Shown in pieces: positions 47,595 through 62,527 of a stretch of DNA of 64,000 nt. The stretch lies in the NCBI GenBank assembly GCA_016842065.1, contig JAEPDS010000018.1, positions 1 through 64,000 on the forward strand, in the 5' to 3' direction. The notes under the pieces are model-generated. The model made no database searches, was not told the origin of the DNA, and was given only the letters and a program-made list of their open reading frames with translations. Position numbers and translations under genes: made by a program. This DNA is from Candidatus Thiodiazotropha sp. 'RUGA' (lineage in GTDB: Bacteria; Pseudomonadota; Gammaproteobacteria; Chromatiales; Chromatiaceae). How positions within the stretch are numbered: position 1 is the stretch's first letter; every line of letters starts with the position of its first letter.

Positions 47595-47640
47595 ATGGCG
47601 TCCCCAAGGGGAGTCGAACCCCTGTTACCGGCGTGAAAGG
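47595..47640. repeat. left attachment site (46-bp tRNA-Glu 3' copy)
   Basis: Identical over 46 bp to the 3' part of the intact tRNA-Glu at the right end. The flanking sequence diverges on both sides, so this is the duplicated att core left by site-specific integration. It is followed 194 nt later by the integrase gene. Confidence 0.93.
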
Positions 47641-47772
47641 GCTTTTCTCTACAGTACAGAACGGAATATTTCGCTATAGTACGCTATCATTAAGTATCTA
47701 TTTTGACAGCATTTTTTCTATGATGTAGTCTATCTACGTTCATGGCTGTTCATCTGAATTTATACCCGTAAT

Positions 47773-47791
47773 TACGTACAAAATGCGTACT
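47773..47791. promoter_or_regulatory. candidate integrase arm sites, left
   Basis: TACGTAC (47773) and TGCGTACT (47784) are 11 nt apart, just before the integrase gene. The same TACGTACT unit occurs four times near the right end (62349-62407), also with an 11-nt step. Such repeats at both ends fit arm-type integrase or excisionase binding sites. Confidence 0.55.
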
Positions 47792-47833
47792 CAGGTTACC
47801 GCCATGCAGGTTTTGAACCTTAGAGCGACCTAG

Positions 47834-48967
47834 ATGGCATCGAAGATTGACACAATCACTAAACGAAGAAATCTCATCCCACGACGGGATCCATACTTTG
47901 AACGTATGTTCCCGGGTCGATCCCTCGGATATCGTAAATCCAAAGTCAAGGGCGGGACATGGATTGCGAGAATAAAAATAGATGGTGACGGTTACAAATA
48001 CCGATCCCTGAGTCCAGATGACTCAATGGACTATGAGCGGGCCATAAAGGAAGCAACAGCCTGGTTTGAACTTGTTGGGCAGCTGGATAAAGGGGCTGAC
48101 ATCAGATATAGCGTCAAACAATGTGTCGCTGATTACATTAGCCACCTGAAGATCGAAAACAGCGCATCATCAGCGACCAGGACCGATCAGTCCCTGCAAA
48201 AGCACTTGGTCCCCGCCCTGGGGAGCGTAGAACTGTCCAGACTGACGACGGTAAGGTTGAAACGCTGGCGTGACGGACTGGTTAAGGAGTCAGAGGATCC
48301 TGAAGTGGTCAGGAAGTCAAAGGACACTGCAAATCGTGTTTTATCAATGGCCAAGGCCGCATTCAACCTAGCTTTCCGATCAGGCAGTGCTGGATCCGAT
48401 ACGGCCTGGAGGCGAGTTCCTGCTTTCAAGGATGTAGGGGAAAACCGGAAACTCTTCCTGACCACTGCCCAGGTTGACGCTCTGGTAAATAATTCCAAAG
48501 GCCAATTTAAAAACCTCATCATTGCCGCTCGTCTGACTGGTGCTAGGTACGGCGAGCTGGCAAATGCCAAAGTACAGGACCTGGATCCCTTCAACGGGAC
48601 CCTTCTCCTAGAGGGCAAGACCGGATCAAGGTATTGCTACCTATCTGATGATGCCCTCACATTTTTTAATAAGCTAACAAAAGACAGACTCCCAACTGCG
48701 TATCTACTGGTCAAAGACGATGGCGAACCTTGGGGAAAATCTCACCAACATAGGCCAATGAAAAGTGCAGTCAGGCTCTCCAAGCTGCCAAGGGACACAG
48801 TGTTCTACTCTATTCGACACTATCACATATCAAAGGCACTACTGGCCGGTATTCCCGCCCAGGTGGTCGCTGAGAACTGTGGTACCAGTATCCGTATGCT
48901 GGAGAAGCACTACGCCAAGTTTATGGGAACGGACAGGCGCAAGATGATGAATGAGGTTGCGTTATGA
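47834..48967 (+). CDS. int: tyrosine recombinase (integrase)
   Basis: A 377-residue phage-type integrase. It has an N-terminal arm-binding region (WIARIKIDGDGYKYRSLS), a core-binding SAM-like region (about 95-185) and a catalytic domain with the first Arg in TGARYGELANAK, a second box FYSIRHYHISKALLAG and the nucleophile Tyr in LEKHYAKF near residue 358. It recombines the element into tRNA-Glu. The next gene overlaps by 4 nt. Confidence 0.93.
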   Translation: MASKIDTITKRRNLIPRRDPYFERMFPGRSLGYRKSKVKGGTWIARIKIDGDGYKYRSLSPDDSMDYERAIKEATAWFELVGQLDKGADIRYSVKQCVADYISHLKIENSASSATRTDQSLQKHLVPALGSVELSRLTTVRLKRWRDGLVKESEDPEVVRKSKDTANRVLSMAKAAFNLAFRSGSAGSDTAWRRVPAFKDVGENRKLFLTTAQVDALVNNSKGQFKNLIIAARLTGARYGELANAKVQDLDPFNGTLLLEGKTGSRYCYLSDDALTFFNKLTKDRLPTAYLLVKDDGEPWGKSHQHRPMKSAVRLSKLPRDTVFYSIRHYHISKALLAGIPAQVVAENCGTSIRMLEKHYAKFMGTDRRKMMNEVAL

Positions 48968-49584
48968 CTGAAACCATGTCTATACAACAAATTGTTGACC
49001 TGCTTGCACCAGTTAAACAAACCCCAGCCTCTATACTCGATTCAGCAATCAGCAAGGTTGCTGAGTATAAAACTGCAGGGGTTGATCTGGAGCTTGCAAG
49101 AGCAGTCAATCTAGTCAGCAGTGAAGATGACAAGCTCGCCATGGACCTTAAGCGGTCAGTCAGCAATGCCATTACCAGCAAAAGCCTCAGTGTATACAAG
49201 CAAATCGGTAATTGCCTTGATGACTGGGAAATCAAGATTGATAAAAAATTCTCTAGATGGCTCAAAAAGATACAAGCTGACTTTGGGATATCAATACCCC
49301 CAATATTCAACAACGAACCAGATCAAAAAACTATCAGGAAGAAGAAGATCGAGTTGAGACATGAGGATGTGAAAAATGTCATCAACTCAATACAAGAAGA
49401 AGACCCAAGTTTTGATCCATTTAATCTAGAACCAGGGATGAAAAGAGTTATTTATGAAAGATGCAAAAAAAAGAGCCTAAGCCTCTTCGCTATTACATTT
49501 GAGACATTTCATTCTGAATACTGGAATTCTGACCTTAGGAAGCAGCTACTGAAGGTAAAAGACGAAAAAAAATTCAAATCGTAA
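48964..49584 (+). CDS. unknown protein coupled to integrase
   Basis: A 206-residue soluble, mostly helical and lysine-rich protein. Not recognised. The start overlaps the integrase by 4 nt, suggesting a joint function in integration or its control. Later part (KKKIELRHEDVKNVINSIQE) is strongly charged. It is followed by a GC hairpin. Confidence 0.65.
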   Translation: MTETMSIQQIVDLLAPVKQTPASILDSAISKVAEYKTAGVDLELARAVNLVSSEDDKLAMDLKRSVSNAITSKSLSVYKQIGNCLDDWEIKIDKKFSRWLKKIQADFGISIPPIFNNEPDQKTIRKKKIELRHEDVKNVINSIQEEDPSFDPFNLEPGMKRVIYERCKKKSLSLFAITFETFHSEYWNSDLRKQLLKVKDEKKFKS

Positions 49585-49609
49585 CTCATTGATTTGATTA
49601 CATCTCGAA

Positions 49610-49633
49610 GTGGGGGATAATAAACCCCCCCAC
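49610..49633 (+). terminator. G/C hairpin downstream of integrase unit
   Basis: GTGGGGG (49610-49616) pairs with CCCCCAC (49627-49633), loop of 10 nt. A C-rich stretch follows without T-run. It may separate the integrase unit from the replication unit. Confidence 0.4.
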
Positions 49634-49701
49634 CCCCACACATTGACCCCCCACCCCATCACTCGTCTACGCTGGACTCCTGCAAACAATAGGGGGACAG
49701 A

Positions 49702-49896
49702 ATGAACTCACAAATCCACACGGTGAAGGAAGCGATGGAAATCCTGCGCTCTTCGCGAGCGACGGTTTACTTGTTAATAAACAGTGGACGCTTGAGGTCC
49801 TTTAAGATCGGAAATCGTCGTTACGTCACACGCGAGGCACTGAAACAATTTATTGCTCACGCAGAAGCTGCAGAAAAAGGCCCAGAAGCAGCGTGA
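49702..49896 (+). CDS. excisionase-type helix-turn-helix protein
   Basis: A 64-residue winged-helix/MerR-like DNA-binding domain of the excisionase family (HTH_17): TVKEAMEILRSSRATVYLLI followed by GRLRSFKIGNRRYVTREALK. It has an AGGGGG ribosome binding site. Such proteins direct excision or act as AlpA-type regulators. It overlaps the following replication gene by 4 nt. Confidence 0.85.
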   Translation: MNSQIHTVKEAMEILRSSRATVYLLINSGRLRSFKIGNRRYVTREALKQFIAHAEAAEKGPEAA

Positions 49897-50600
49897 GCAT
49901 TGCCGCCACTAAATGGGCATGGCTTCAGGATTTGCCACCGACGGCGAAACTTGTCCTACTGGCACTCGCCGATCACGCTGATGACTGGGGAGTCTGTTGG
50001 CCTTCACTAAGCCGACTGGTTTCGATGACGGGATTAAGTCGGAGTTCAACAGCTCGCGCTCTTGCTTCGCTAGACGGAAAACTGATTCTGCGAGATAGGA
50101 GTAAAGGCGGTGTCGGTCATTCGACTCGATATCAACTAATGATGGAACAGTCCCACCCTGAGACTATTAAACGGTCTCACCATGACACTGTTCTGGAGGG
50201 AAATGATCCCACAGTGACTCCTAACAGTCCCACAGTGACGCCCAAACAGTCCCACAGTGACACTCAAACCGTAAGAGAACCATCAAAAACCATCAGTTGC
50301 GCAAAGTCCTTCGCGAAGTTTTGGGCGGTCTATCCGAAAAAACGCGCCAAGCATGCAGCGATGAAGGCATGGAGGAAGAAGGGAGTCCATGACCAAGCCG
50401 ACCTGATTATTGAAGACGTGAAACGACGAACCAAACGAGACCCAGAATGGACAAAAGAAGGGGGAAAGTTTATTCCGTACCCATCGACCTACCTTAATGG
50501 CAAGCGGTGGGAGGATGAGATAACACCTGGAAATGTAGCCGCTCGTCCGTCGTCACAATCTCTGCCCGCCGAGGATGTTATTGCGGGGCAAATCCTATGA
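49893..50600 (+). CDS. phage replication protein with helix-turn-helix domain
   Basis: A 235-residue protein. The N-terminal 90 residues are a winged helix-turn-helix (LPPTAKLVLLALADHADDWG, then PSLSRLVSMTGLSRSSTARAL), the middle is a Thr/Ser/Pro-rich linker and the C-terminal part (FWAVYPKKRAKHAAMKAWRK and FIPYPSTYLNGKRWED) is the conserved tail of phage O-type replication initiators. It should recognise the element origin and load the helicase encoded next, with which it overlaps by 4 nt. Confidence 0.85.
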   Translation: MSIAATKWAWLQDLPPTAKLVLLALADHADDWGVCWPSLSRLVSMTGLSRSSTARALASLDGKLILRDRSKGGVGHSTRYQLMMEQSHPETIKRSHHDTVLEGNDPTVTPNSPTVTPKQSHSDTQTVREPSKTISCAKSFAKFWAVYPKKRAKHAAMKAWRKKGVHDQADLIIEDVKRRTKRDPEWTKEGGKFIPYPSTYLNGKRWEDEITPGNVAARPSSQSLPAEDVIAGQIL

Positions 50601-51832
50601 CAACACCTGCCTACTATACGGAGCAAAGAGCCATCGGCGGCTTTCTTGTGGATCCATCCAGGCTAATGGATTGCCCCCTTTCAGCGGGAGACTTCCAACA
50701 GGATACACACACGCAGATTTTTGCAGCAATCCTGGAAATGGAAGCTACACAGGAAGCTGTCGATCTTGTCACCGTAGCTCAGCACCTGGAAAAGAAAACC
50801 GGAAGAAATTTCTTGCCGGCACTTCAACATTGCTACGACTCTGCAGCCGGCAGAGCCAACCATGGCGCTGTTGTCGATGCAGTCAAACAACAGGCGACCG
50901 AACGGAAAATATCCGCCATCGCGAAAAGTTTAGCTGAAGACAAGGATCCAAATGCTGCCATCGCGGCTTTAATTCGACTTCAAAATACTGGACGGCGATA
51001 TGATTTCACTCTCAGTCAGGCCCTGACTGCCGCTCTTGAGGAGATCGAGAGTGACTCCAACTCAGGAATTCCAAGCGGCCTGAGAGCCCTTGATGCGTTA
51101 ACAGGAGGCTGCCGTTCTGGCGATCTCATCATAGAAGCAGGCCGTCCCGCGATGGGAAAGACGGCAAGTCTTGTTAATCGGATTTCATCGTGTGGTGTTC
51201 CGTGCGGACTCATAAGCGGAGAACAGGGAGCGTCACAAATAGCAATGCGTCTCTTGGCACTTCAAGCGGGGGTGAATGCGTGGGGATTGCGAAATCAAAA
51301 CCTGTCGGAACATTCGTGGGGGCGCGTTACTGAAGGATTGGCCGCACTCAAAGATCGCCAAATCTATATCAACGACAAGCCGTCACCATCCATCACAGAT
51401 GTTATCCGTCAGGCTCGCGCCTGGGCGCACAAATATGGAATAAAAATTCTCTTTGTGGACTATCTCCAGAGACTCACAGCTACAGACCATAGAGCTGCAC
51501 GTCATTATCAAATTGAAGAGATTGCCAAAAGCCTGAAGAGCATTGCAAGAGAGCTCTGCATCCCTGTTGTTGCAGCTGCACAGGTTCGGCGAGAGGTGGA
51601 GACTCGCAATGACAAGCGGCCAACCCTCTCCGATCTCAAAGATTCTGGCTCGATAGAACAAGAAGCTGATCAAGTGATCTCGATTTTTAGGGATGAATAC
51701 TATCACCCCGACACCAACGACGCAGGCATTGCGGAGTTTGCCGTACTCAAGAACAGGCACGGCCCGACTGGCACCGTAAAAGTGCATTGGTCAGCGCAGC
51801 AGATGCGGTTTTCTGACATGGGCGAGGAGTAA
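50597..51832 (+). CDS. DnaB-type replicative helicase
   Basis: A 411-residue DnaB family helicase with an N-terminal DnaB domain (about 1-110) and a RecA-like C-terminal ATPase (Walker A AGRPAMGKTA near residue 190, Walker B ILFVDYLQRL, H/Q region AAQVRREVE). The protein is somewhat shorter than host DnaB, and phage-like. With the upstream initiator it implies the element replicates autonomously after excision. It starts 4 nt inside the upstream gene. Confidence 0.93.
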   Translation: MTTPAYYTEQRAIGGFLVDPSRLMDCPLSAGDFQQDTHTQIFAAILEMEATQEAVDLVTVAQHLEKKTGRNFLPALQHCYDSAAGRANHGAVVDAVKQQATERKISAIAKSLAEDKDPNAAIAALIRLQNTGRRYDFTLSQALTAALEEIESDSNSGIPSGLRALDALTGGCRSGDLIIEAGRPAMGKTASLVNRISSCGVPCGLISGEQGASQIAMRLLALQAGVNAWGLRNQNLSEHSWGRVTEGLAALKDRQIYINDKPSPSITDVIRQARAWAHKYGIKILFVDYLQRLTATDHRAARHYQIEEIAKSLKSIARELCIPVVAAAQVRREVETRNDKRPTLSDLKDSGSIEQEADQVISIFRDEYYHPDTNDAGIAEFAVLKNRHGPTGTVKVHWSAQQMRFSDMGEE

Positions 51833-51834
51833 AA

Positions 51835-52017
51835 ATGACAGGTATCGAAGACCTTGAGAAAGAACAAGCCCTGCTGGATGAGTTCATCAAAACACAAAAG
51901 CTGCTTTGGATCTACGAGGCAAAGTTGAACCTCATCAGACAGCAATATCTTGACCACCACCAATCAATCATCACCAAGCTGGAGAATGAACATGCCCAAC
52001 GCACTTGCAAAAGTTAA
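51835..52017 (+). CDS. small helical protein
   Basis: A 60-residue charged, helical protein (LEKEQALLDEFIKTQKLLWI) starting 2 nt after the helicase stop. It overlaps the start of the next gene by 26 nt. No family recognised. Confidence 0.5.
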   Translation: MTGIEDLEKEQALLDEFIKTQKLLWIYEAKLNLIRQQYLDHHQSIITKLENEHAQRTCKS

Positions 52018-52960
52018 CAACAAAGCTGACCTCGAATCTGAGCTGCAGTCACTCTACGATAAACAAACTGAAACCAAAAACCAGATCGAGCAATTGCAAA
52101 AAAAGACATACGCAGCAAGGCGCAAGGTCAATCGATTTGAGCTGGAACATCAAAACAAGTATCGAGAATTTTTTGTAGAAGACCTTGATGAATACTCCCT
52201 GCACCTATACCGGGAAAAGCAAAAAGCGGCTGATGATCTGCAGGCCGAGCTGGAGCGAGTTACTGCAGAGCTGCCAAAGATCGAGAAGGATATTGAGTAT
52301 GTCAACACTGCACTGAGTGAAAAAATTTCCGTACCAGTGGATGAGATCATCGCGCAACAAAAAGCAGTCGCCGACCTACAGAGTGAAGTTCACCGAATTC
52401 ATGAAGCAATTCATGCGCAACAAGAACTACACCGACTGGCAAAGCAAAGCCGGGAAGAAAATGCGGCTGAGATCGAAAGCCAGCGCCAGGAGCTGTTAGC
52501 AAAGCAGGCGCTCGGTGAAGTAGACGATCCACAGGCATTCAAAACAGTCGCGGGGATGGCTGATACACATTATGAAAAATCTGACCAGGAAATAGCTCAG
52601 ATTCAGTCAGCTATAGCAGGACTTCAAAAACGATTAGATGATGTAAAGACTTTGCTGTCTATTGAGCACGACAACCTGGACAGGCTTAAGCATGCATTTT
52701 ATGAAGGCAACTTGCGAAAAACTCTGAATCAGTACGAGAAGAAAGCCAAGGAACTTCATAAGTTAGTTAACCGCATTCATGGGCACTCCCGATACTTAGG
52801 CCGCAATGCCATCTCAAAAACAGGAAGTTTCGATTTGCCTGGATATGTTGGCATGAGCTGCTATCCCAAAGCGTACATCCACGACCGTGATATTCGACCA
52901 GATGAAGGCGCAAATGCACTGCAAGCCGAATTTCAAAAGCTTGGCATCATCGATGAGTAA
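51992..52960 (+). CDS. long coiled-coil protein
   Basis: A 322-residue protein, nearly entirely coiled coil (heptad-rich from about 10 to 255; e.g. ESELQSLYDKQTETKNQIEQ), with a non-helical C-terminal end containing HSRYLGRNAISKTGSFDLPG. The ATG at 51992 has GGAG 7 nt upstream; two earlier Met codons in frame do not. Function unknown. It lies between the helicase and the tandem structured RNA region. Confidence 0.7.
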   Translation: MPNALAKVNNKADLESELQSLYDKQTETKNQIEQLQKKTYAARRKVNRFELEHQNKYREFFVEDLDEYSLHLYREKQKAADDLQAELERVTAELPKIEKDIEYVNTALSEKISVPVDEIIAQQKAVADLQSEVHRIHEAIHAQQELHRLAKQSREENAAEIESQRQELLAKQALGEVDDPQAFKTVAGMADTHYEKSDQEIAQIQSAIAGLQKRLDDVKTLLSIEHDNLDRLKHAFYEGNLRKTLNQYEKKAKELHKLVNRIHGHSRYLGRNAISKTGSFDLPGYVGMSCYPKAYIHDRDIRPDEGANALQAEFQKLGIIDE

Positions 52961-52966
52961 GATTTT

Positions 52967-53034
52967 GGCAGGTTCCAGCCGCCGCGAGGGGCTGGCGTGC
53001 TCTTCGGCACGGGGCATAACCTGCCACCCTTTTT
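52967..53034 (+). ncRNA. structured RNA/terminator, three-way junction copy 1
   Basis: Closing stem GGCAGGTT (52967-52974) with AACCTGCC (53018-53025), 8 of 8 pairs. Inside are two adjacent hairpins without spacers: CCAGCC/GGCTGG (52975-52980 with 52990-52995) and CGTGC/GCACG (52996-53000 with 53007-53011), then a 6-nt joint GGGCAT. After the stem come ACCC and a T-run. The pairing was found by eye. Confidence 0.6.
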
Positions 53035-53036
53035 AT

Positions 53037-53106
53037 GGTGGATTGGAGAACCAGCAAGGACTCCATCGGTATCCGCGCCGAGCCAGATCCGCCACCCTAT
53101 TTTTTT
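53037..53106 (+). ncRNA. structured RNA/terminator, three-way junction copy 2
   Basis: Same plan as copy 1, 70 nt later. Closing stem GGTGGAT (53037-53043) with ATCCGCC (53087-53093), 7 pairs including one G-U. Hairpins TGGAG/CTCCA (53044-53048 with 53061-53065) and TCGG/CCGA (53066-53069 with 53078-53081), 5-nt joint GCCAG. After the stem come ACCCTA and a 7-T run, then the portal gene ribosome site. Confidence 0.6.
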
Positions 53107-53119
53107 CAGGTAATCAACT

Positions 53120-55186
53120 ATGAGCACCAACATCACCACTCCACCGAAAATTGAAATCGCTAAATCTCAGGCAGGGATTGATATCACCCAAGGATACGCT
53201 GACAAGCTCATGCAGCCAGAGGATGCTGTACTGCTGACCCGAGGGGGTGGCGATCTTAAAATCTACAAAGAGCTACTGCGGGATGAACAGGTACTCTCCT
53301 GCTGGCAGCAACGACAGTCCGCACTCACTAGCAAAGAGACTTTTGTTGAACCCGGCGGTACCAGTGCGATCGACAAGAAAGCCGCCGACGCCATGAAAGA
53401 GATGATACAGAGCTTGGAATGGGACAACATCACCAAAAAGATAATGTATGGGCTGTTATACGGCTACTCAGTATCAGAAATCATGTGGACCAAAGATAGC
53501 AACATGCTCATGATCGAGGATATTAGAGTCAGGAAGCAACGACGATTCCGGTTTGGACTCAAAGGCGAGCTGTATCTGATTACACAAGAACAGCCTACAG
53601 GTCAGCTCATGCAGAGCACCCTATCAGGACCAGTGACAAGGAACAAAACCAATCCATTTGGCCCTAAGTTTTGGGTTTACAACACAGGCTCAGACAACAG
53701 TGATGATCCCTATGGGCTCGGCCTGGGACACCAGCTCTACTGGCCCGTATTCTTCAAGCGCAATGGAATAAAATTCTGGCTGATCTTCCTGGAGAAATTC
53801 GGTTCTCCAACAACTATGGCGAAGATACCCCAAGCCATGATGGATTCGAAGACCATGCAAGGCCGCGTTCTGGAAGCTCTCAGATCAATTCAGGGCAACT
53901 CTGCCATCGTCTTTCCCGAAGGCACAGAGGTAGAACTGATCGAAGCAGTACGAAGCGGCACAGCTGACTATGCCGAGCTGCATCAGCGGATGGATAAAGC
54001 AATATCCAAGATCATCCTGTCCCAGACCATGACTACTGACGACGGAGCAAGTCTCTCACAGGCTCGTGTACATCAGAAAGTACGCGACGAAGTAGTCAAG
54101 GCCGACGCTGATCTGATCTGTGGATCCTTCAATACCACAGTATCCCCCTGGTGGACATCTCTCAACTTCGAAAATGCTAAACCTCCTAAAGTCTGGCGCA
54201 AGACCGAGAAGGAAGAAGACCTCCATCAGAGAGCGAAACGGGATGAGAAGATTTTTGACATGGGAATGAAGCCGACAAAGGAATATCTCGTTGACACGTA
54301 TGGTCCCCAATATGGCAAATGGGTAAGGTCAGATGTGGCCGAGTCCTCAACTTCGTTTGCTGAAGGTGACGCCTCTTTATCGTTTTCCTTCGATATGAAG
54401 CCGGAAACCGCCCTCCTCTACTTCCAGAACAAAGGCATGGAATTGACCTTTTCCTGGAAGGACATGCTGGCTGAGTCGCACTCCTACGCCTTCACTGTCG
54501 CCAAGATGATGGAAGTGGATCTCCTTCACGAGGTACGTAAACAAGTTGATCTGGCGATTGCAACAGGATCTACCATGCAGGAGTTCATCAAAAACCTGAA
54601 ACCAAAGCTGCGCCAAGCTGGCTGGTGGGGAAAGAAAGCAATGATTGATCCTATTACCGGAAAAACCATCACCGCACAACTGGGAAGTGCAAGAAGGCTA
54701 GAAACAATCTTCAGAGCAAACCTTCAGGCCGGCTACGCAGCTGGTCACTGGACAAATGCACAAGCAACGAAGGCCGCTATGCCCTACCTGATGTATGACG
54801 CCGTAGACGACGATAGAACCCGCCCTGAGCACAAAGCCTGGGATGGGCTTGTACTGCCTGTAGATGATCCCTTTTGGAATACCCACTATCCACCGAATGG
54901 CTGGGGTTGTCGATGCGGCACAATCCAGATGAGTCAAGCCGACGTCAATCAAGAAGGGCTTTCTGTTTCCAGGTCACCACGCATCAAGACCAAGCGATGG
55001 AAGAATCCAAGAACTGGTAAGCGCAGAAAAGTCCCTGTCGGTATAGATCCATCATGGGATTACAACCCGGGCAAAGCCGGTATGCAGCGACTCCTCCAGG
55101 TCTTCAGGGAGAAAATCGACAACCTGCCCGATGGTATGCGGTTGAGAATGTTGGCCTGGGCTCGTAACAACAGTATTGCAATATAG
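53120..55186 (+). CDS. fused Mu-type portal and head-morphogenesis protein
   Basis: A 688-residue protein. About residues 1-410 match the DUF935 (Mu gp29-like) portal family: TKIYKELLRDEQVLSCWQQR-type start, GYSVSEIMW and GNSAIVFPEGTEVELIEA. Residues 430-680 are a Mu F/gp30-like SPP1 gp7 head-morphogenesis domain (ETIFRANLQAGYAAGHW, YDAVDDDRTRPEHKAWDG, PPNGWGCRCGT). The two are separate in Mu but fused in this protein. Terminase and major capsid genes are not nearby. The portal would form the DNA entry gate of a capsid. The tape measure gene follows 13 nt after. Confidence 0.9.
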   Translation: MSTNITTPPKIEIAKSQAGIDITQGYADKLMQPEDAVLLTRGGGDLKIYKELLRDEQVLSCWQQRQSALTSKETFVEPGGTSAIDKKAADAMKEMIQSLEWDNITKKIMYGLLYGYSVSEIMWTKDSNMLMIEDIRVRKQRRFRFGLKGELYLITQEQPTGQLMQSTLSGPVTRNKTNPFGPKFWVYNTGSDNSDDPYGLGLGHQLYWPVFFKRNGIKFWLIFLEKFGSPTTMAKIPQAMMDSKTMQGRVLEALRSIQGNSAIVFPEGTEVELIEAVRSGTADYAELHQRMDKAISKIILSQTMTTDDGASLSQARVHQKVRDEVVKADADLICGSFNTTVSPWWTSLNFENAKPPKVWRKTEKEEDLHQRAKRDEKIFDMGMKPTKEYLVDTYGPQYGKWVRSDVAESSTSFAEGDASLSFSFDMKPETALLYFQNKGMELTFSWKDMLAESHSYAFTVAKMMEVDLLHEVRKQVDLAIATGSTMQEFIKNLKPKLRQAGWWGKKAMIDPITGKTITAQLGSARRLETIFRANLQAGYAAGHWTNAQATKAAMPYLMYDAVDDDRTRPEHKAWDGLVLPVDDPFWNTHYPPNGWGCRCGTIQMSQADVNQEGLSVSRSPRIKTKRWKNPRTGKRRKVPVGIDPSWDYNPGKAGMQRLLQVFREKIDNLPDGMRLRMLAWARNNSIAI

Positions 55187-55199
55187 GGGGAGAGCTGAC

Positions 55200-57449
55200 A
55201 TGGCACTTGATCTCAAAATCACACTAAAAGCCATTACCAGCGGCTTAAAATCAGGACTAAAGTCTGCTGAGGGTGCAGTCCAATCGTTCTCCCGAAAAAT
55301 CAAGAATATCGATGGCAGTGCTGGATTCTCAAAGACCAAATTAGCTGTCGATAAACTGAAACTCAGTGTTGGAGCAGCTGCGGGGAATATCGCACAACTC
55401 AATACCCGCGTGAAGGAAGCAACCACCGCAGGAGGCGCGCTTGGTGGCGCATTAAGGCTGATTAGCGGCATTGCTATTGTTAATTGGTTCAAAGAGGCGG
55501 CAACTGGTGCACAGTCTCTGTATGAAGGCTTTAAGGTCATCACTGGCAGCAGCACCAAAGCTAGAGAGGAGCTGGACTATGTGAGGCGCGTAGCCACCCA
55601 ACTGGGCCTGCCATTAAAACAAGCCGGGAACGCCTACCTGTCCCTTGCAGCCGCGGCAAAAGGCACCACCCTGGAAGGTGAGGCCAGCCGGCAGATATTC
55701 GAGGCCGTATCGCTCGCCATGGGCAAACTGGGCAAGAGCAGCGCGGACACCGAAGGCGCTCTCCTGGCCATTCAGCAGATGATATCGAAGGGGAAGGTAT
55801 CCGCGGAAGAATTGAGAGGACAGCTTGGTGAACGTCTGCCTGGCGCATTCCAGGCCGCGGCCAGAGCGATCGGCGCCACTACCCAAGAGCTTGATGATAT
55901 GCTGAAGGCAGGTGAGCTGACAGCCGAAGAGCTACTTCCCAAGCTTACTGTGGAACTCAACAACCTCTACAACGATGGAAAACGAATTGAGACCTTCAGT
56001 GCCTCCTGGAATAGATTAAAAAACTCCATATCAACAGCCTTTTCGGCAGTAAACGAGTCAACAGGGGCAATGAACGTACTTGGCCGAGCAATGGAAGCAG
56101 TTGGGTCAGGCGTCTCTCTGTTATCTGTGGGCTTTGTAACCCTGATCGAGAAGATCAAGGGTGCTACCCAGATGGTGAAAGCATTCTTTGATGCTGCAAC
56201 CTCAAGGGATACATCAATCTCTGATGCACTTCAAAAAACCCGAAAAGCCTGGATTGAGTCAGAGCAAGCCATTCGCAAAGCAGCAGATTCTGCCTTCAAT
56301 GCGGATATTAACCTGTCAAAACTTGGCACAACGACCAAAGAGACAGGAATCAAGGTTATTCAACTTGGGAATGCTGCCTCTTCTGCCAAATCCGACTTAA
56401 AAAGTCTTTCAGATTCAACAAAAGATTTGAAAGATGCCTCCAACAAAACAGGCGATGAAACTGTAAAACTGGCTGAAAATGTCAATGAACTGGCCAAACA
56501 ATATCGAGAGGGCAAAATAAACGCGGATGCCTTCCTGGCTGGCGTTAAGAAACACTCCACAATCGCTGAAGATGTCTCCAAGGGATATAAGCGTGCAAGT
56601 GGTGCCGCAGCAGGGTACGGGCAGGCTGTGCAGAACTCAGAACAGCAAGCTGCTGCAGCCAGAGCACAGGGCTTGTCAGGATTCGCCAATTTCTGGAAGC
56701 GGGTTTATGACACTTATCACGGCATCAGCGCTGCAGCCGGCGCGGCCTATGATTCCCTGTTTGAGAAATTCAAACGGATGGGGGTTGCAGCTAAGGATTA
56801 TCACTATGTCTTGAAGACAACCCACGACTTTCTCGAAAAACTTGATGTCAGGATTAAAGACTGGGCAAAAGGCGCTCAGGGGTATGGTGATAGCTTAAGA
56901 GGAGTCATCGCCAACGCCACAAGAGCGATCGGCAACATGAAGGTACTCGATGCTCAAAAGCTCAACCAGCTACGCCAACAGATCGGAGCAGCCAGGGCGG
57001 CATTGAGAGGATTGAACGATGACGCCAGAGCGACGTTAAGCAGCATCAGACAGGAACTTGCCGAGTTACAGGGTGATGTACTTGGTGCAGAGCAATTGCG
57101 GTATCAGCAGCGACGTGAGGCGCTTCAATCTCAGCTTCAGAATTTAATACGGCAAGGTGCAACCGAAGGAGCAGCTGATATCAGGGCTGCACTTGCAGCG
57201 CTACAGACCGCTCACAACATCAGAATGCAACAGCTTAGAGCGGAACAGGCCGAACAGGGCAACTCAACTACACCAGGCGCTGCACCTCTTCCACCACAGC
57301 GCAATAACTTCGGTGAGGGGCTTACCAATAACCTCGTTGAAGTTCGATTCAATACAGGCTCCGGGATTGGGACATCCGGGTACTTTCCGCAAGATGGTGT
57401 AGGCGATTTCTTACAAATGCTGCAAGACGCAGGAGCAACGACAGAATGA
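55200..57449 (+). CDS. phage tape measure protein
   Basis: A 749-residue protein with the tape measure domain (about 85-260: EELDYVRRVATQLGLPLKQA and KVSAEELRGQLGERLPGAFQ) followed by alanine-, lysine- and glutamine-rich helices. A proline-rich end precedes the C-terminus. Tape measure proteins determine tail length in long-tailed phages. The ATG at 55200 has GGGAG 7 nt upstream. It directly follows the portal fusion, whereas capsid and tail tube genes would normally come between. Confidence 0.87.
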   Translation: MALDLKITLKAITSGLKSGLKSAEGAVQSFSRKIKNIDGSAGFSKTKLAVDKLKLSVGAAAGNIAQLNTRVKEATTAGGALGGALRLISGIAIVNWFKEAATGAQSLYEGFKVITGSSTKAREELDYVRRVATQLGLPLKQAGNAYLSLAAAAKGTTLEGEASRQIFEAVSLAMGKLGKSSADTEGALLAIQQMISKGKVSAEELRGQLGERLPGAFQAAARAIGATTQELDDMLKAGELTAEELLPKLTVELNNLYNDGKRIETFSASWNRLKNSISTAFSAVNESTGAMNVLGRAMEAVGSGVSLLSVGFVTLIEKIKGATQMVKAFFDAATSRDTSISDALQKTRKAWIESEQAIRKAADSAFNADINLSKLGTTTKETGIKVIQLGNAASSAKSDLKSLSDSTKDLKDASNKTGDETVKLAENVNELAKQYREGKINADAFLAGVKKHSTIAEDVSKGYKRASGAAAGYGQAVQNSEQQAAAARAQGLSGFANFWKRVYDTYHGISAAAGAAYDSLFEKFKRMGVAAKDYHYVLKTTHDFLEKLDVRIKDWAKGAQGYGDSLRGVIANATRAIGNMKVLDAQKLNQLRQQIGAARAALRGLNDDARATLSSIRQELAELQGDVLGAEQLRYQQRREALQSQLQNLIRQGATEGAADIRAALAALQTAHNIRMQQLRAEQAEQGNSTTPGAAPLPPQRNNFGEGLTNNLVEVRFNTGSGIGTSGYFPQDGVGDFLQMLQDAGATTE

Positions 57450-57736
57450 CCATTCTTGCTTTTAAACGAAGCCTACTAAACAAGCTTAATCTCAGAGCTT
57501 CAGCCCCAAGCCCTGATAATCAACAAGTGCTAGAGGGTCATTTGCAGAAATTGAGGGAGGCAAATCAGATGCTCTCTGATGTATTTCATAATAGATCAGA
57601 ATGCTACAAAAAAAACAAAGGACAAGACATTTGTGAAGTTAGTATTGCTGAAGCATTTCTTCAATCATCACTTGCTTGTGCAGAACTAGAGATAAAACTG
57701 CATGAGATCTGTAAAAAGCAGGAAATAAGCAGGTAA
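57446..57736 (+). CDS. small protein of unknown function
   Basis: A 96-residue, charged, probably helical protein with four Cys. Not recognised. It starts 4 nt inside the tape measure gene and its stop overlaps the start of the next gene by one base, so it is a member of the same transcript. Confidence 0.65.
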   Translation: MTILAFKRSLLNKLNLRASAPSPDNQQVLEGHLQKLREANQMLSDVFHNRSECYKKNKGQDICEVSIAEAFLQSSLACAELEIKLHEICKKQEISR

Positions 57737-58146
57737 TGGCAAAATTCAAACCAGGCCAGTCAGGCAATCCGAAGGGTCGCCGCAAAGGGTCTAGCAAAGT
57801 ATCCGAATTGAGAGCCAAACTGGAGCCGCACGCCGATGATTTGATTCAAACGGCTGTCAATATGGCCCTGGGAGGCGATCTGCAGGCACTGAAGCTCTGC
57901 CTGGAACGACTACTCCCCCCACTCAGGCCACAAGCTGAAACAGTCAAACTATCCGCCCTGACAAAAGCAGAGAGCCTGTCCGATATGGGAGAGGCGATAC
58001 TCCAAGCCATAGCTGCAGGAGAGCTGCCTCCTGATGTAGGTAGAGACCTGCTGACCGCGATAGCCGCACAGATGCAGATAACAGAAGGCGATGAGTTACA
58101 GAAGCGGCTGGAGTCACTGGAGGGTATGACCATTGACCAGAAGTGA
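57736..58146 (+). CDS. DUF5681-family protein
   Basis: A 136-residue protein with the hallmark KPGQSGNPKGRRKGSSK start of the DUF5681 family, followed by helical regions (LMALGGDLQALKLCLERLLP-like). DUF5681 proteins occur in phages and integrative elements and have been placed near small terminase subunits; function is not established. It overlaps the flanking genes. Confidence 0.82.
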   Translation: MAKFKPGQSGNPKGRRKGSSKVSELRAKLEPHADDLIQTAVNMALGGDLQALKLCLERLLPPLRPQAETVKLSALTKAESLSDMGEAILQAIAAGELPPDVGRDLLTAIAAQMQITEGDELQKRLESLEGMTIDQK

Positions 58147-58327
58147 GCTTAAACGACGCATCAAGGCGGCTGAGGATCAATATCAAAAGTCACTAAGTTC
58201 GATGACAGAGGATGAGCTAAATCAGCGGATTCAATACATCCTGGACAAGCTCAGTCTTCCCCACCCCATAGATGCATCATCGATGACCGCCGATGAAATC
58301 AATGACGCTGTAAGTGATTATATGTAA
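58133..58327 (+). CDS. small acidic protein
   Basis: A 64-residue helical protein starting at TTG within the end of the DUF5681 gene. It contains the repeat-like SSMTEDELNQRI and SSMTADEINDAV. Not recognised; expression is probable from the tight packing. Confidence 0.5.
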   Translation: MTRSELKRRIKAAEDQYQKSLSSMTEDELNQRIQYILDKLSLPHPIDASSMTADEINDAVSDYM

Positions 58328-58382
58328 AGCATTAATTTACAGTATTGGTAAGCATCAGTTGGTCCTCTTTTGGCTAACAATG

Positions 58383-58398
58383 GGTTATAACTATAACC
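58383..58398. promoter_or_regulatory. palindromic operator-like site
   Basis: GGTTATA-AC-TATAACC, a 16-bp dyad with 7-bp arms, about 25 nt before the start of the next gene. The TATAAC half also resembles a -10 box. A repressor of the element could bind here. Confidence 0.55.
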
Positions 58399-58423
58399 AC
58401 ACTACTGAACAAAGGAGACCATT

Positions 58424-58642
58424 ATGACCAACCTATCCCAACGTAAATCTGAATCCATCGAAAGAGCAGCTGCAGGCATTCATGGTATTGCTAAAGTTCT
58501 GGGTCAAATAGATGAGAATGATGTTCCCGTCATTGATAATCCAGTGACCAGAGGAGCTCTTCTGTATGCTGTAGAAGAATTATCTTCCTCAATAGAAAGT
58601 AATGCGGAAGACCTTACAGGGTACCTTCAGGCTTCTAAATAG
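58424..58642 (+). CDS. small protein of unknown function
   Basis: A 72-residue acidic soluble protein (SESIERAAAGIHGIAKVLGQ) with a strong AAAGGAGACC ribosome binding site. Not recognised. It begins a new unit behind the palindrome at 58383-58398. Confidence 0.65.
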   Translation: MTNLSQRKSESIERAAAGIHGIAKVLGQIDENDVPVIDNPVTRGALLYAVEELSSSIESNAEDLTGYLQASK

Positions 58643-58696
58643 AGTTCATTTCTTGGTATAGTGATTTTTATAACCAAAAAATATGGAGATATTCCT

Positions 58697-59173
58697 GTGA
58701 AATGGATCATTCCCTTTCTAGCTTCCACTCTCCCCCTCCTCGCTCAGGCAGAAATCTATAAATGCCTGGATGAACATGGCAAGCCTACCTTCAGCCAACG
58801 GCCCTGTGGTGACGCTGCAGAGGTTATTACAGTAAAGCCACAGAAGCAGTCCGACCCTACCCCTAGTTCTCGTGAGGAGTACTCAGAGCAGCTTGAGGCG
58901 ATCAGCACCAGGACAGAGATCAAGAAGCTGGAAAGGGAAATCACCAAACTCAAAGCCCGGAAGCGTAGTCTTACCAGAAAAATGGATGCAGAGCTGGCAG
59001 CACTCAGACAAAAGAAACTCTACGCAAGAAACAACCTTGCTGGAGCAACCTGGGAAGAAAGTATTTCATCTGAGATGCAGGCTGTATCTGCCAGCTATAA
59101 GACCAAGATCCAGGCAACACAAGACCGTATAGATGAGGCAAAAGTAGACATACAAAATTTAACAACAAAATAA
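58697..59173 (+). CDS. DUF4124-domain periplasmic protein
   Basis: A 158-residue protein with a signal peptide (FLASTLPLLAQA) followed by the DUF4124 motif EIYKCLDEHGKPTFSQRPC and a long coiled coil (KLEREITKLKARKRSLTRKM). The GTG start has GGAG 8 nt upstream, and the frame would otherwise place polar residues before the signal peptide. DUF4124 proteins are common gammaproteobacterial envelope proteins of unknown function, unusual as phage cargo. Confidence 0.75.
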   Translation: MKWIIPFLASTLPLLAQAEIYKCLDEHGKPTFSQRPCGDAAEVITVKPQKQSDPTPSSREEYSEQLEAISTRTEIKKLEREITKLKARKRSLTRKMDAELAALRQKKLYARNNLAGATWEESISSEMQAVSASYKTKIQATQDRIDEAKVDIQNLTTK

Positions 59174-59196
59174 AAAGCAATTCAGAGGATCAGGAA

Positions 59197-59757
59197 ATGA
59201 AAAAAGCAATAATTCTAATGTTATTCATAATGACAGGCTGCGCAAGCACTCAATCTACATCTTATGTAGACCCTAAATATAAAAATATAAAATATAGTAA
59301 TTATTTAATTGTTACACCCAGCCTAAGCCTCGAGTACTCAAAATATCTTCAGCCAATGCTTTGCAGCAAAATTAAAGACAATGACGCCAAATGCAAAGGA
59401 GCTCTCGATCTATTCTTACCTACGAGGTCTTATGATAAGACAGCAATAGAAAAAACACTTAAGGGAAATGACTTTGATGGAGTTTTATTAATTACATATG
59501 ATTCAAACATCAATACATACAAAACGGACATAATAGAAAACACGATAACAGCCTACAGCCTGGAATCCACTAAATTGATGTACTCAAGGAATGATCTATA
59601 TAGTTACATTCTTTATGACTTAAAGACGATGGACAAAGTTATGATTGGCAGCTCAACCACCTCTGCACAAGGAATATCCTCTACGACAGATGACACATTT
59701 GCCGCAAGTATTTCAAGAGGCATTATCAAAGAACTTCAAATCAATCAATTACTATAA
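59197..59757 (+). CDS. lipoprotein of unknown function
   Basis: A 186-residue lipoprotein with short signal sequence and lipobox (LFIMTGCAS). The mature part is predicted alpha/beta (FDGVLLITYDSNINTY). No family recognised. AT-rich codon use marks the start of the cargo region. It lies 23 nt after the DUF4124 gene. Confidence 0.7.
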   Translation: MKKAIILMLFIMTGCASTQSTSYVDPKYKNIKYSNYLIVTPSLSLEYSKYLQPMLCSKIKDNDAKCKGALDLFLPTRSYDKTAIEKTLKGNDFDGVLLITYDSNINTYKTDIIENTITAYSLESTKLMYSRNDLYSYILYDLKTMDKVMIGSSTTSAQGISSTTDDTFAASISRGIIKELQINQLL

Positions 59758-59796
59758 CTCATTATCTAATTATTAATTAGCAAATATGGTGGCACT

Positions 59797-60924
59797 ATGA
59801 AAGGACAGTGGCATGGTGAATATAGCGGCAGTGAACAAGGCTATTTGATACTAAACATTGATGAAATTGAAAATCAATATTATATAAGAGCATACTTTAT
59901 TCCTAAAAATACTGATACTCCACTATTCACCTTCTATTACATCACCAATACCAACGAGCCCTTGCAAATACTGAACGTTAAGATCGACGTTGTCGACAAA
60001 TTTAATAGACTTCCTACCACATGGAAAAAGATAAAGGGACTATATCCAAATATTTCATCACCACCCGAAAATGCAAAAGTAAAAATTCTGTTTGAAAATG
60101 ATTTACTAAAACTTAACTTAAAATCCAATCGAGTTAAAGCAAAGACTAATATTGAAATTGATATAAACTTTGAATCTAGCACAAAACAAGAACTCACAGA
60201 ATCTAATATTCAATCAGAAACTATGAGTTGGAAGGAATTTAAAAATTTTGTATCAGATAATTCTAAATATAATTACTTATATAGAGGACAAAAAAAACCT
60301 TGGCCACTAACAACATCATTTCATAGAAGAGGAAGATTTGAAATGCTGAGGTTTGTTTCAAATGATGTTCAGCAGCTACATCGTAGACTCAGTGCGATGA
60401 CGACTCATTATTTTAATTTAAATAACTCAAATGAAAATGGCTCATTTTTTAATCTAATTCAACATCATGGCTACCCTACCCCGTTACTTGACTGGACACT
60501 CTCACCCTATATAGCTGCGTATTTTGCATTTAAGGACTGGCCAAAAAACCATACAGGTAGCGAGAATGTAAGAATATATATTTTTAATATAGAGGAATGG
60601 ACAAAAAACAATCAACAGATTCAACATCTTGATCCTGCCATGCTTCATTTATCACTAAGCGAATTTATTGCAATAGATAACCCAAGATTAATTACTCAGC
60701 AATCTAAAACAACTATAACAAATATCTATGATATTGAAGCATATATTCGTATGGCTGAATCCACAAAAGATGGGATATGGTATTTAAAAGCGATAGACAT
60801 CCCAGCTAATGAAAGAGAGTTTACAATCAATGAACTTAGGATTATGGGAATAACTTCAGGATCTATGTTCCCCACCTTAGATGGAGTATGTGCAGAATTG
60901 AAAGAAACTAACTTTGATGAATAG
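59797..60924 (+). CDS. FRG-domain protein
   Basis: A 375-residue protein. The N-terminal 130 residues are a beta-rich region (QWHGEYSGSEQGYLILNIDE), and residues 140-340 form an FRG domain: WKEFKNFVSD, LYRGQKKPWPLTTSFHRRG, and LIQHHGYPTPLLDWTLSPYI. FRG domains occur as cargo of mobile elements and in anti-phage and toxin contexts; their activity is unknown. Strongly AT-rich and likely acquired. The N-terminal domain may recognise a trigger. Confidence 0.82.
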   Translation: MKGQWHGEYSGSEQGYLILNIDEIENQYYIRAYFIPKNTDTPLFTFYYITNTNEPLQILNVKIDVVDKFNRLPTTWKKIKGLYPNISSPPENAKVKILFENDLLKLNLKSNRVKAKTNIEIDINFESSTKQELTESNIQSETMSWKEFKNFVSDNSKYNYLYRGQKKPWPLTTSFHRRGRFEMLRFVSNDVQQLHRRLSAMTTHYFNLNNSNENGSFFNLIQHHGYPTPLLDWTLSPYIAAYFAFKDWPKNHTGSENVRIYIFNIEEWTKNNQQIQHLDPAMLHLSLSEFIAIDNPRLITQQSKTTITNIYDIEAYIRMAESTKDGIWYLKAIDIPANEREFTINELRIMGITSGSMFPTLDGVCAELKETNFDE

Positions 60925-61568
60925 CTAGGCTTGAATTTAGAACTTTGTATAAAAATAGATCAACACAAATGTTAAAATAATAACCACCAAGTAGCTTACG
61001 CTAAAACACTAACAGCATAGAGCTAAACCATGATGGCTTAACATAGATTGTGTTGCTAAGCGAAAATATTCTGAAAATATTAGTTTTGAACTATTAATGC
61101 ACTCAGGAATTCTTATCTTATTTGTAGCTGAGGGTCTCCCAAAAGTTGGAGTGTTCATAACTCGAGATTTCTGGCTTCATGAGGGTAAAATATTTTAGGA
61201 ATATTAAATTATGATGGGCCATATTCCGGTAGTGTCACTATCGATAATGGCCCAACTAATGAAAATTTTAAGGAAAAATATGTTGTTGACAAAACAGCCA
61301 TTAAAACTAGCCAAGGCACTTTAGTTAACCAAAGTCCGTCCTCACAAGCAATCAGCTCATCTTCTGGAAACTCGTCAAGTAAAGTGGATGCTTCGGGCTA
61401 CAGGCATGCCACAGGAAGAAGAGGCTCGCACATTAAATGTATATTATCAATTGGCGTAGGTGGACATGGCCACGGTGTCTGCGACCACGAAAGTGGAGAG
61501 GTCTATGACATCATGCTCTAATGCTCTTATTACTTGTCAAAATATGAATCAAAATAACGGAGAGATTA
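60925..61568. other. AT-rich intergenic region in cargo
   Basis: About 640 bases between the FRG gene and the membrane coiled-coil gene. It holds the reading frame remnant described separately and no other supported feature. Confidence 0.5.
61189..61521 (+). pseudogene. open reading frame without start codon, likely gene remnant
   Basis: A 110-codon open frame without ATG, GTG or TTG near its beginning. It has coherent protein-like composition: SGSVTIDNGPTNENFKEKYV, a Ser/Asn-rich linker, and IGVGGHGHGVCDHESGEVYD at the end. It ends in TAA. It may be the end of a gene that lost its start, or use an atypical start. Confidence 0.45.
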
Positions 61569-62099
61569 ATGATCCCAAATTTACCGACAGATAACTTGTA
61601 TAAATTCATTGCTCTTTCTGGACTCATTGTCATGTTATTTTCAATATACATATTAGAGACTAAAACAAGTGATTTGGAGGATAAAGTATATGCAACTGAA
61701 ATTGAACAAGCTCAATTAACGATAGAAATTAAAGCACTTCAAAAGAAGACTGTTGAGCTTAATGAAATTGTTAATAACACAATCAATGAACATAATGAAT
61801 GCAGCTCACAAGCAATAGATCAAATGGTAGTTAGATATTCTGATGCTGAGATCAAGAAAATGATTAATGATACAGAAGATGCTACCCTTCAAATTAATTT
61901 AAAAGTTGCTGAGAAGAAGATAACATTAAAACGACAAACCCAACTAATCAATCAACTTAGAGATTTATTATTTTTGGGTAGAATTTATATATGGTTTGGT
62001 TTTCTAGTATCTATATTTGGCTTTACGCTATGGTATTACAGAGTCCAGAGGCCACTAGATACCAAACTAAGAATGGGTGCCAAACAAGAAACAGATTAA
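61569..62099 (+). CDS. membrane coiled-coil protein
   Basis: A 176-residue protein with two membrane helices (about 10-30 and 138-158) joined by a long coiled coil (LEDKVYATEIEQAQLTIEIK to VAEKKITLKRQTQ). The ATG follows CGGAGAG. Not recognised. It is the last gene of the element and AT-rich like the FRG gene; may be part of the same cargo. Confidence 0.7.
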   Translation: MIPNLPTDNLYKFIALSGLIVMLFSIYILETKTSDLEDKVYATEIEQAQLTIEIKALQKKTVELNEIVNNTINEHNECSSQAIDQMVVRYSDAEIKKMINDTEDATLQINLKVAEKKITLKRQTQLINQLRDLLFLGRIYIWFGFLVSIFGFTLWYYRVQRPLDTKLRMGAKQETD

Positions 62100-62348
62100 G
62101 GGAGATTGGCCGTTTCCTGCCTGCATAATGGGCCATGCATTAGGTCTGCTTTTGCGAAATAAACCCTGGGTAGCTCTCACCGTTGTCAGGCTAACTAAGA
62201 TCCTATTTTCAATCATGTCCTATCAAGCCTAAACTTCTGCAGACAGAGAAGGCATCAACCAAACCGTACTAGTGCTAACTTTAGACAAGGCTGCACATAC
62301 GGTTATGGAGCGCCAGCACATCTCAGAGGGGTGATAATTTGGAATTAG

Positions 62349-62407
62349 TACGTAATTACACACGGGATTACGTACTGAGAATTGGTGTTACGTACTGGAT
62401 ACGTACT
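62349..62407. promoter_or_regulatory. candidate integrase arm sites, right
   Basis: Four copies of TACGTA, three of them extended to TACGTACT, begin at 62349, 62369, 62389 and 62400: steps of 20, 20 and 11 nt. They lie 45-100 nt inside the right attachment site and share the unit with the left cluster at 47773-47791. Confidence 0.65.
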
Positions 62408-62450
62408 ACATGATCTTGGAGCCAGGAAATGACCTAAGTCATTGAAATGT

Positions 62451-62496
62451 ATGGCGTCCCCAAGGGGAGTCGAACCCCTGTTACCGGCGTGAAAGG
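62451..62496. repeat. right attachment site (within tRNA-Glu)
   Basis: The 46-bp partner of the left site; it covers the 3' half of the intact tRNA-Glu gene plus one base. Integration therefore preserved the tRNA. Confidence 0.93.
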
Positions 62497-62527
62497 CCAG
62501 TGTCCTAGGCCTCTAGACGATGGGGAC
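62452..62527 (-). tRNA. tRNA-Glu (TTC anticodon)
   Basis: A 76-nt tRNA with encoded CCA. Acceptor strands GTCCCCA and TGGGGAC pair, the anticodon loop is CTTTCAC with anticodon TTC, and the T arm has GGTTCGACTCC. It lies on the minus strand, with its 3' end facing the element. Confidence 0.96.

Follow-up and report, generated by a model that had tools for sequence, protein, structure and literature searches.

A tandem pair of C4-like RNAs preceding the portal gene of a satellite-like element in Candidatus Thiodiazotropha sp. 'RUGA'

The gap between a coiled-coil protein gene and a Mu-type portal gene on contig JAEPDS010000018.1 of Candidatus Thiodiazotropha sp. 'RUGA' (assembly GCA_016842065.1) harbors a pair of structured RNAs at positions 52966-53094 of the window, the 64,000-nt stretch of DNA that was analyzed (positions 1 to 64,000 of the contig). 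The pair is real, and sequence comparison favors reading it as a C4-clan variant with short stems and a tandem arrangement. We place at roughly 0.6 the probability that it represents two tandem short-stem C4-clan RNAs in an integrative, satellite-like phage element, the main interest being that a phage satellite may here carry a regulatory cassette that acts in trans.

Layout and folding of the two copies

The two RNAs (Table 1) take up nearly all of the gap between the coiled-coil and portal genes (52960 to 53120). They correspond to the two consecutive three-way-junction sequences of one plan, 70 nt apart, which an earlier note made from the letters of this DNA had described and which are indeed present; counting the outer U-A pair raises the lengths given there (59 and 57 nt) to 61 and 59 nt. 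A three-way junction composed of a closing stem (P1), two hairpins (P2 and P3), and a joint is found in both copies, copy 1 adopting it only in an above-minimum fold, and both carry the ends U-GG and CC-A-CC. The copy starts are spaced by 70 nt, and each sequence finishes with CCACCC and a T-run, the TTTTA of the linker serving also as the 5' flank of copy 2 (UUUUA in the C4 consensus). The downstream portal fusion is matched by Pfam families PF06074 (E 4.4e-102) and PF04233 (E 1.4e-25). PADLOC linked the upstream coiled-coil protein weakly to LmuB (E 8.5e-5) and JetC, which possibly reflects coiled-coil composition only.

Table 1. Coordinates of the RNA pair, its structural parts, the flanking genes, and the surrounding element (window positions)
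Feature	Position	Strand	Description
Mobile element	47595-62496		14.9 kb; bounded by direct repeats of 46 bp (47595-47640, 62451-62496)
Upstream coiled-coil gene	51992-52960	+	five bases from stop codon to copy 1
RNA copy 1, C4-like three-way junction	52966-53026	+	P1 9, P2 6, and P3 5 pairs; joint 6 nt
Copy 1 P1	52966-52974/53018-53026		9 pairs including outer U-A
Copy 1 P2	52975-52980/52990-52995		
Copy 1 P3	52996-53000/53007-53011		
Copy 1 joint	53012-53017		3' of stem: CCC, TTTTT
Predicted 70-nt RNA from copy 1	52967-53036	+	RNase P predicted to cut before the GG of both copies, by analogy with P1/P7 C4
Linker, copy 1/copy 2	53027-53035	+	CCC, TTTTT, A
RNA copy 2, C4-like three-way junction	53036-53094	+	P1 9, P2 4, and P3 5 pairs; joint 4 nt
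Copy 2 P1	53036-53044/53086-53094		9 pairs
Copy 2 P2	53045-53048/53061-53064		one A before P3
Copy 2 P3	53066-53070/53077-53081		
Copy 2 joint	53082-53085		
Copy 2 tail	53095-53106	+	CCC TA TTTTTTT
Downstream gene	53120-55186	+	Mu-type portal fused to Mu F-like domain (Pfam)

A descriptor written after the copies had been seen, which demanded 8 or more closing-stem pairs, a pair of adjacent hairpins, and a joint no longer than 8 nt, matched the 14.9-kb element twice on the + strand, at the two copies themselves, and nowhere on the - strand; run on one strand of each of 30 equally long first-order Markov sequences, it matched once in total, and no match ended in CCACCC. The observation of the earlier note that the hairpin sequences differ while their pairing is preserved was borne out, as all 18 of 18 pairs hold between the copies and 7 of the 18 differ on both sides. 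This level of pairing and two-sided change was reached by 3 of 500 shuffles, and slid structures gave pairing in 29-44% of cells, in a test in which the structure was taken from the same two sequences and Ns were inserted as spacers. "Covariation," the term used in that note, is only suggestive here, because two copies within one genome do not equal homologues in different genomes.

Folding energies modestly back the three-way-junction layout, with z-scores that depend on the cut. Against shuffled controls, the comparison which the note had proposed, the outcome was modest throughout, with z of -3.16 and -3.04 for copy 1, -1.16 (83 nt) and -2.47 (59 nt) for copy 2, and -1.21 for both copies together. 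Copy 1 reaches its energy minimum as a rod (-35.5 kcal/mol), the three-way junction lying 5.4 kcal/mol above it at -30.1; the minimum-energy fold of copy 2 retains the three-way junction and adds two pairs in the P2 loop (-22.2 versus -19.8 kcal/mol as drawn).

Resemblance to the C4 clan

At the Rfam cut-offs, tRNA alone was matched in the whole window. Under lax thresholds, copy 2 matched C4 (RF01695) with 17.1 bits (E = 2.1; cut-off of 45 bits not reached) and, when a shorter stretch was searched, c4-2 (RF02944) with 21.7 bits (E = 0.019; cut-off of 41 not reached). The c4-2 alignment spans model positions 1-79 and aligns P2, P3, the one-base spacer, the 4-nt joint, and the inner stem register for register, the outer closing stem being paired with other partners than in the proposed structure. 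Copy 1 had no C4-clan match among the Rfam matches listed. The next match in the stretch 52955-53110, SNORA71, lies on the opposite strand (E = 0.1) and was rejected as chance; STAXI and ROSE, either considered or listed by Rfam, were dropped on score, strand, or structure.

Covariance models were built from the two window copies together (R1), from copy 1 alone (R2), and from copy 2 alone (R3). R1 was compared with 35 Rfam-called C4 loci (L160-L188, L093, L094, L095, L099, L102, and P4), a subset of the C4 matches found from which five below-cut-off loci were left out. R1 returned 19 matches over these loci, 18 of which coincide with the C4 RNA in position, strand, and register, the odd one being the weakest. 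Only five of the 18 have E-values below 0.1 (0.0012, 0.02, 0.03, 0.063, and 0.094), and the weight of this result therefore lies in the positions of the matches rather than in single E-values. Non-self matches fell on C4 RNAs in 4 of 5 cases for R2 and 11 of 12 for R3; as the C4 loci are related to one another, the matches of the three models do not amount to independent trials. R1 misses 17 of the 35 loci, P4 included, and its matches, judged from six alignments, rest mainly on the closing stem and flanking letters rather than on the hairpins. Each single-copy model finds the other copy weakly, third in its list (11.7 bits, E = 0.31; 9.7 bits, E = 0.61), and does not find it on larger runs. 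Two further loci, L104 and L107, were among 32 stretches returned by a pattern scan of viral_contigs and possess a C4-type stem of at least 10 pairs at the matched place; R1 found them with 27.3 and 28.8 bits, and they were kept out of the 35-locus count, as the flanks in the search pattern were those of the window copies.

The ends of the window copies recur among the C4 loci: TGG is present at the 5' side in 32 of the 35, CCACC at the 3' side in 23, and both in 21. The closing stem comprises 9 pairs in both window copies versus 17 in the Rfam C4 consensus. Counted from the anchored ends, 13 of the 35 loci have 16-19 unbroken pairs and three (L176, L177, and L178) have 11, the runs of 0-6 in the remaining 19 mostly reflecting failure of the simple anchor and not stem lengths. 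In the latter three loci, the 11 unbroken pairs of the outer closing stem are followed by an internal loop, and they may be intermediates toward the short form. The layout of the window copies recurs in C4 RNAs such as those of L180, L188, and L093, whose minimum-energy folds contain P1, a pair of adjacent hairpins, and a joint. Kinship of the pair with the C4 clan (the c4 RNA of P1/P7, the CI RNA of P4, and c4-2) is fairly well supported, the resemblance being to C4 in the closing stem and ends of both copies, and to c4-2 in the hairpins and joint of copy 2.

Genomic setting and distribution

The RNA pair resides in a mobile element (Table 1) whose second 46-bp repeat overlaps a tRNA-Glu gene (62452-62527, - strand). 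Upstream of the RNAs, the element encodes an integrase, a small HTH_17 protein, a replication initiator, a DnaB helicase, and the coiled-coil protein; the portal/Mu F fusion, a tape measure protein, a DUF5681 protein, and an FRG-domain gene follow them. No terminase or capsid protein was recognized among the 17 element proteins compared with Pfam, ten of which were also compared with PHROGs. The features by which a satellite is judged, namely, an integrase with att repeats, replication genes, and an incomplete set of virion genes, were all found, and the gene content is suggestive of a satellite or a decayed prophage, possibly a phage satellite equipped with a portal and a tape measure of its own. 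The portal and tape measure genes overlap here, whereas in the four loci possessing both (L017, L077, L139, and L141) the respective matches start approximately 8-10 kb apart. At the low-GC end of the element, the FRG-domain protein (59797-60924) matches the PADLOC candidate defense family PDC-S15 (E 3.2e-41) and is probably anti-phage cargo. The intergenic stretch before the HTH_17 gene (49584-49702) contains several C and G runs and may represent a regulatory or origin region.

A second element of the same genus lies beside a tRNA-Met gene (L210:14825-19965 and L211:1-1467; G016:C7). It carries an integrase-like ORF (by eye), a rep gene (24% identical) and a DnaB gene (49%), and an HK97-type capsid gene (PF05065) beside which no other head gene was recognized; directly after the capsid gene lies a Proteo-phage-1 RNA (50 bits). 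ORFs that look phage-like are present on the opposite strand at L210:8429-10756.

No homologue of the RNA pair was found across genome, portal, tape measure, pattern, and distant DNA searches. R1 matched only the own genome among 40 relatives and likewise among 369 class genomes, a run of low sensitivity in which at most 13 candidates per genome were scored; among 38 family genomes, it matched the own genome and G417, the latter with 21 bits (E = 0.475) and with CCACC lacking a T-run. Loci anchored on the portal gene were collected from genome_contigs (12) and viral_contigs (73), along with 340 phage records. Since R1 gave only two matches among these 85 loci (L024 and L042, both 16.1 bits), the RNAs are no general feature of Mu-type portal regions. 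In the same run, R1 listed copy 1 alone in the window, and copy 2 scores 72.3 bits in the run over 40 relatives; as the stretches modelled for the two copies share 4 bases, we attribute its absence to removal of the lower-scoring match where two overlap, and not to a failure of copy 2. The 23 viral loci anchored on the tape measure gene contained no R1 match, and short-form patterns returned 4 and 1 stretches, none with a three-way junction as its minimum-energy fold. The coiled-coil protein had no homologue in viral_contigs or phages and two matches in the 369 genomes (its own and a weak one, E 6.3e-4). One weak phage match and three weak plasmid matches from the distant DNA search lay in non-corresponding genes and were rejected.

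Among 56 relatives, three carried C4 itself above cut-off, including two (G007 and G017) of the same genus; 23 of the 369 sampled class genomes did so as well. In the own genome, the C4 search returned nothing at E up to 1, stricter filters having missed copy 2 as well.

Proposed processing, targets, and known systems

Within 52500-53300, no promoter was predicted above chance and a scan for terminators returned none (0.8 expected by chance). Because of the former, the copies are presumably transcribed within the message of the upstream replication genes rather than from promoters of their own. According to PMC5320573, RNase P cleaves the precursor transcript of the P1/P7 C4 RNA at a GGW motif where the P1 stem begins on its 5' side, yielding a stable RNA of approximately 77 nt whose loops a' and b' bind target messages. 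By analogy, release of both copies by RNase P may be inferred: the retained GG and A-CC would be expected to make them RNase P substrates, cleavage immediately 5' of the GG in either closing stem would yield RNAs of approximately 70 nt, and the exposed P3 loop and joint would represent the antisense segments b' and a', respectively.

With respect to targets, the best downstream antisense match of the C4 interior lies at +28 to +45 in 22 of the 35 loci (hand count), and several of these target stretches read Shine-Dalgarno-like. This positional hallmark, a match before the next gene, is absent in both window copies, the best downstream match of copy 1 being at +47, within copy 2 (p = 0.92), and that of copy 2 at +126 (p = 0.315). 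The score test is weak, as p <= 0.01 was obtained for only 4 of the 35 C4 loci downstream and 4 of 35 upstream, and short targets are easily missed. Complementarity of the copies across the element was at chance level (p = 0.475, 0.775, 0.840, and 0.525) in a search with little power for short targets. A match of copy 1 around the start of a small gene at 58133 (p = 0.037, uncorrected for the 38 tests made) and its best element-wide match, 58104-58115, which is at chance level, were combined as a candidate target and rejected, because the pieces are wrongly ordered for one duplex, the second is attributable to chance, and the target repeats CTGGAG. Since no target stands out nearby or elsewhere in the element, action in trans on a message of a helper phage, a competing phage, or the host is the most likely of the antisense readings, and a short target within the element is possible.

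The main rival to such trans antisense action is pure message punctuation in cis, whereby the stems, being cut or blocking exonucleases, would set the stability and amount of the replication versus portal messages with no antisense role. We consider this unlikely, if the best of the alternatives. It would account for the way in which the RNAs fill nearly the entire gap between two modules and for the failure of any antisense target to stand out; the retained GG...CC-A-CC ends, common in C4, also speak for it, since a 3' ACC helps RNase P to recognize its substrates. An RCCA motif is named in the abstract of PMC12710915. Against punctuation alone, the same ends typify a clan whose studied members, C4 and CI, are antisense RNAs with a part in phage immunity, as stated in portions of PMC5320573 and PMC4825925.

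That the copies are an unrelated, element-specific RNA pair (for instance, packaging or replication RNAs) with C4-like ends acquired by convergence is improbable. The lack of an antisense target and of homologues would fit such a pair, as would hairpins that bear little likeness to C4 in the R1 matches, but most non-self matches fall on C4 RNAs (18 of 19 for R1, 4 of 5 for R2, and 11 of 12 for R3) and the best Rfam match of the stretch is a C4-clan member. Rfam holds families for the Mu-gpT-downstream RNA and for phage pRNA. Of the matches that Rfam listed at E values of 10 or less, none is to the former, as the earlier note had suspected; no pRNA family is present among them either, and nothing else favors the packaging RNA entertained in that note. 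Equally improbable is the unusual double terminator between replication and morphogenesis genes that it also raised. The stems are GC-rich and have T-runs after them on the coding strand, but the terminator scan was empty and ACCC stands between each stem and its T-run; the CCACC spacing is seen in C4 RNAs as well, nine examples of which run on toward an ATG with no obvious transcript end. What stands of that interpretation is the proposal of processed small or regulatory RNAs, which the resemblance to C4 (the R1, R2, and R3 results and the c4-2 match) supports; the likeness to C4 and the short att-flanked element had been missed.

Returning to the preferred reading of two tandem short-stem C4-clan RNAs, a more speculative version, which we hold to be doubtful, is a satellite cassette in which tandem RNase P-released C4-type RNAs no longer have targets in cis and instead act in trans against a helper or rival phage, their excision also separating the replication and head messages. 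If the preferred reading is confirmed, a doubled short-stem form with no recognizable neighboring targets would imply that C4-type RNAs are separable from their own operon and reusable, trans-regulation between satellite and helper phage would become testable, and current Rfam models would be seen to overlook short C4 forms.

Among known systems, C4 (P1, P7; CI RNA of P4) shares with the window pair the U-GG...CC-A-CC ends, the closing stem, two adjacent hairpins, a joint, residence in a phage or satellite element, and the expectation of release from a longer message. Some phages and phage parasites silence genes of their own with C4 RNAs, and P4, whose C4 RNA scores 74.9 bits, is itself a satellite. 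A match to isrK (RF01394) lies upstream of C4 in all six loci compared (P4, L093, L094, L095, L099, and L102; three above cut-off), and one to c4-a1b1 (RF03163) lies near C4 in three of the six, all below cut-off. No such a1/b1 leader (isrK or c4-a1b1) was matched in 52700-53400, nor does one occur among the matches listed for 52955-53110, a listing that suppresses one lower-scoring match of the clan; the place of the leader is occupied here by copy 1, which matches neither family among those listed. The likeness to c4-2 (clan CL00128) lies in copy 2, copy 1 having no listed match; c4-2 was above cut-off in none of the 369 class genomes sampled, with a below-cut-off match in G092 (23.7 bits). 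Proteo-phage-1 (RF03044) is comparable as a structured RNA adjoining a capsid gene in a rep-DnaB element of the same genus (L210), but consists of two hairpins standing apart, lacks a closing stem, and differs in sequence; it is not among the Rfam matches listed for the window. A literature search gave no paper on Proteo-phage-1 or on c4-2 as a phage antisense RNA. Arrays of C4 RNAs do exist, as four occur in a row at G285:C9:1700-3092, spaced by approximately 355-600 nt, which is wider than 70 nt. Unlike C4 RF01695, the window pair comprises two copies only 70 nt apart and is placed before a portal gene.
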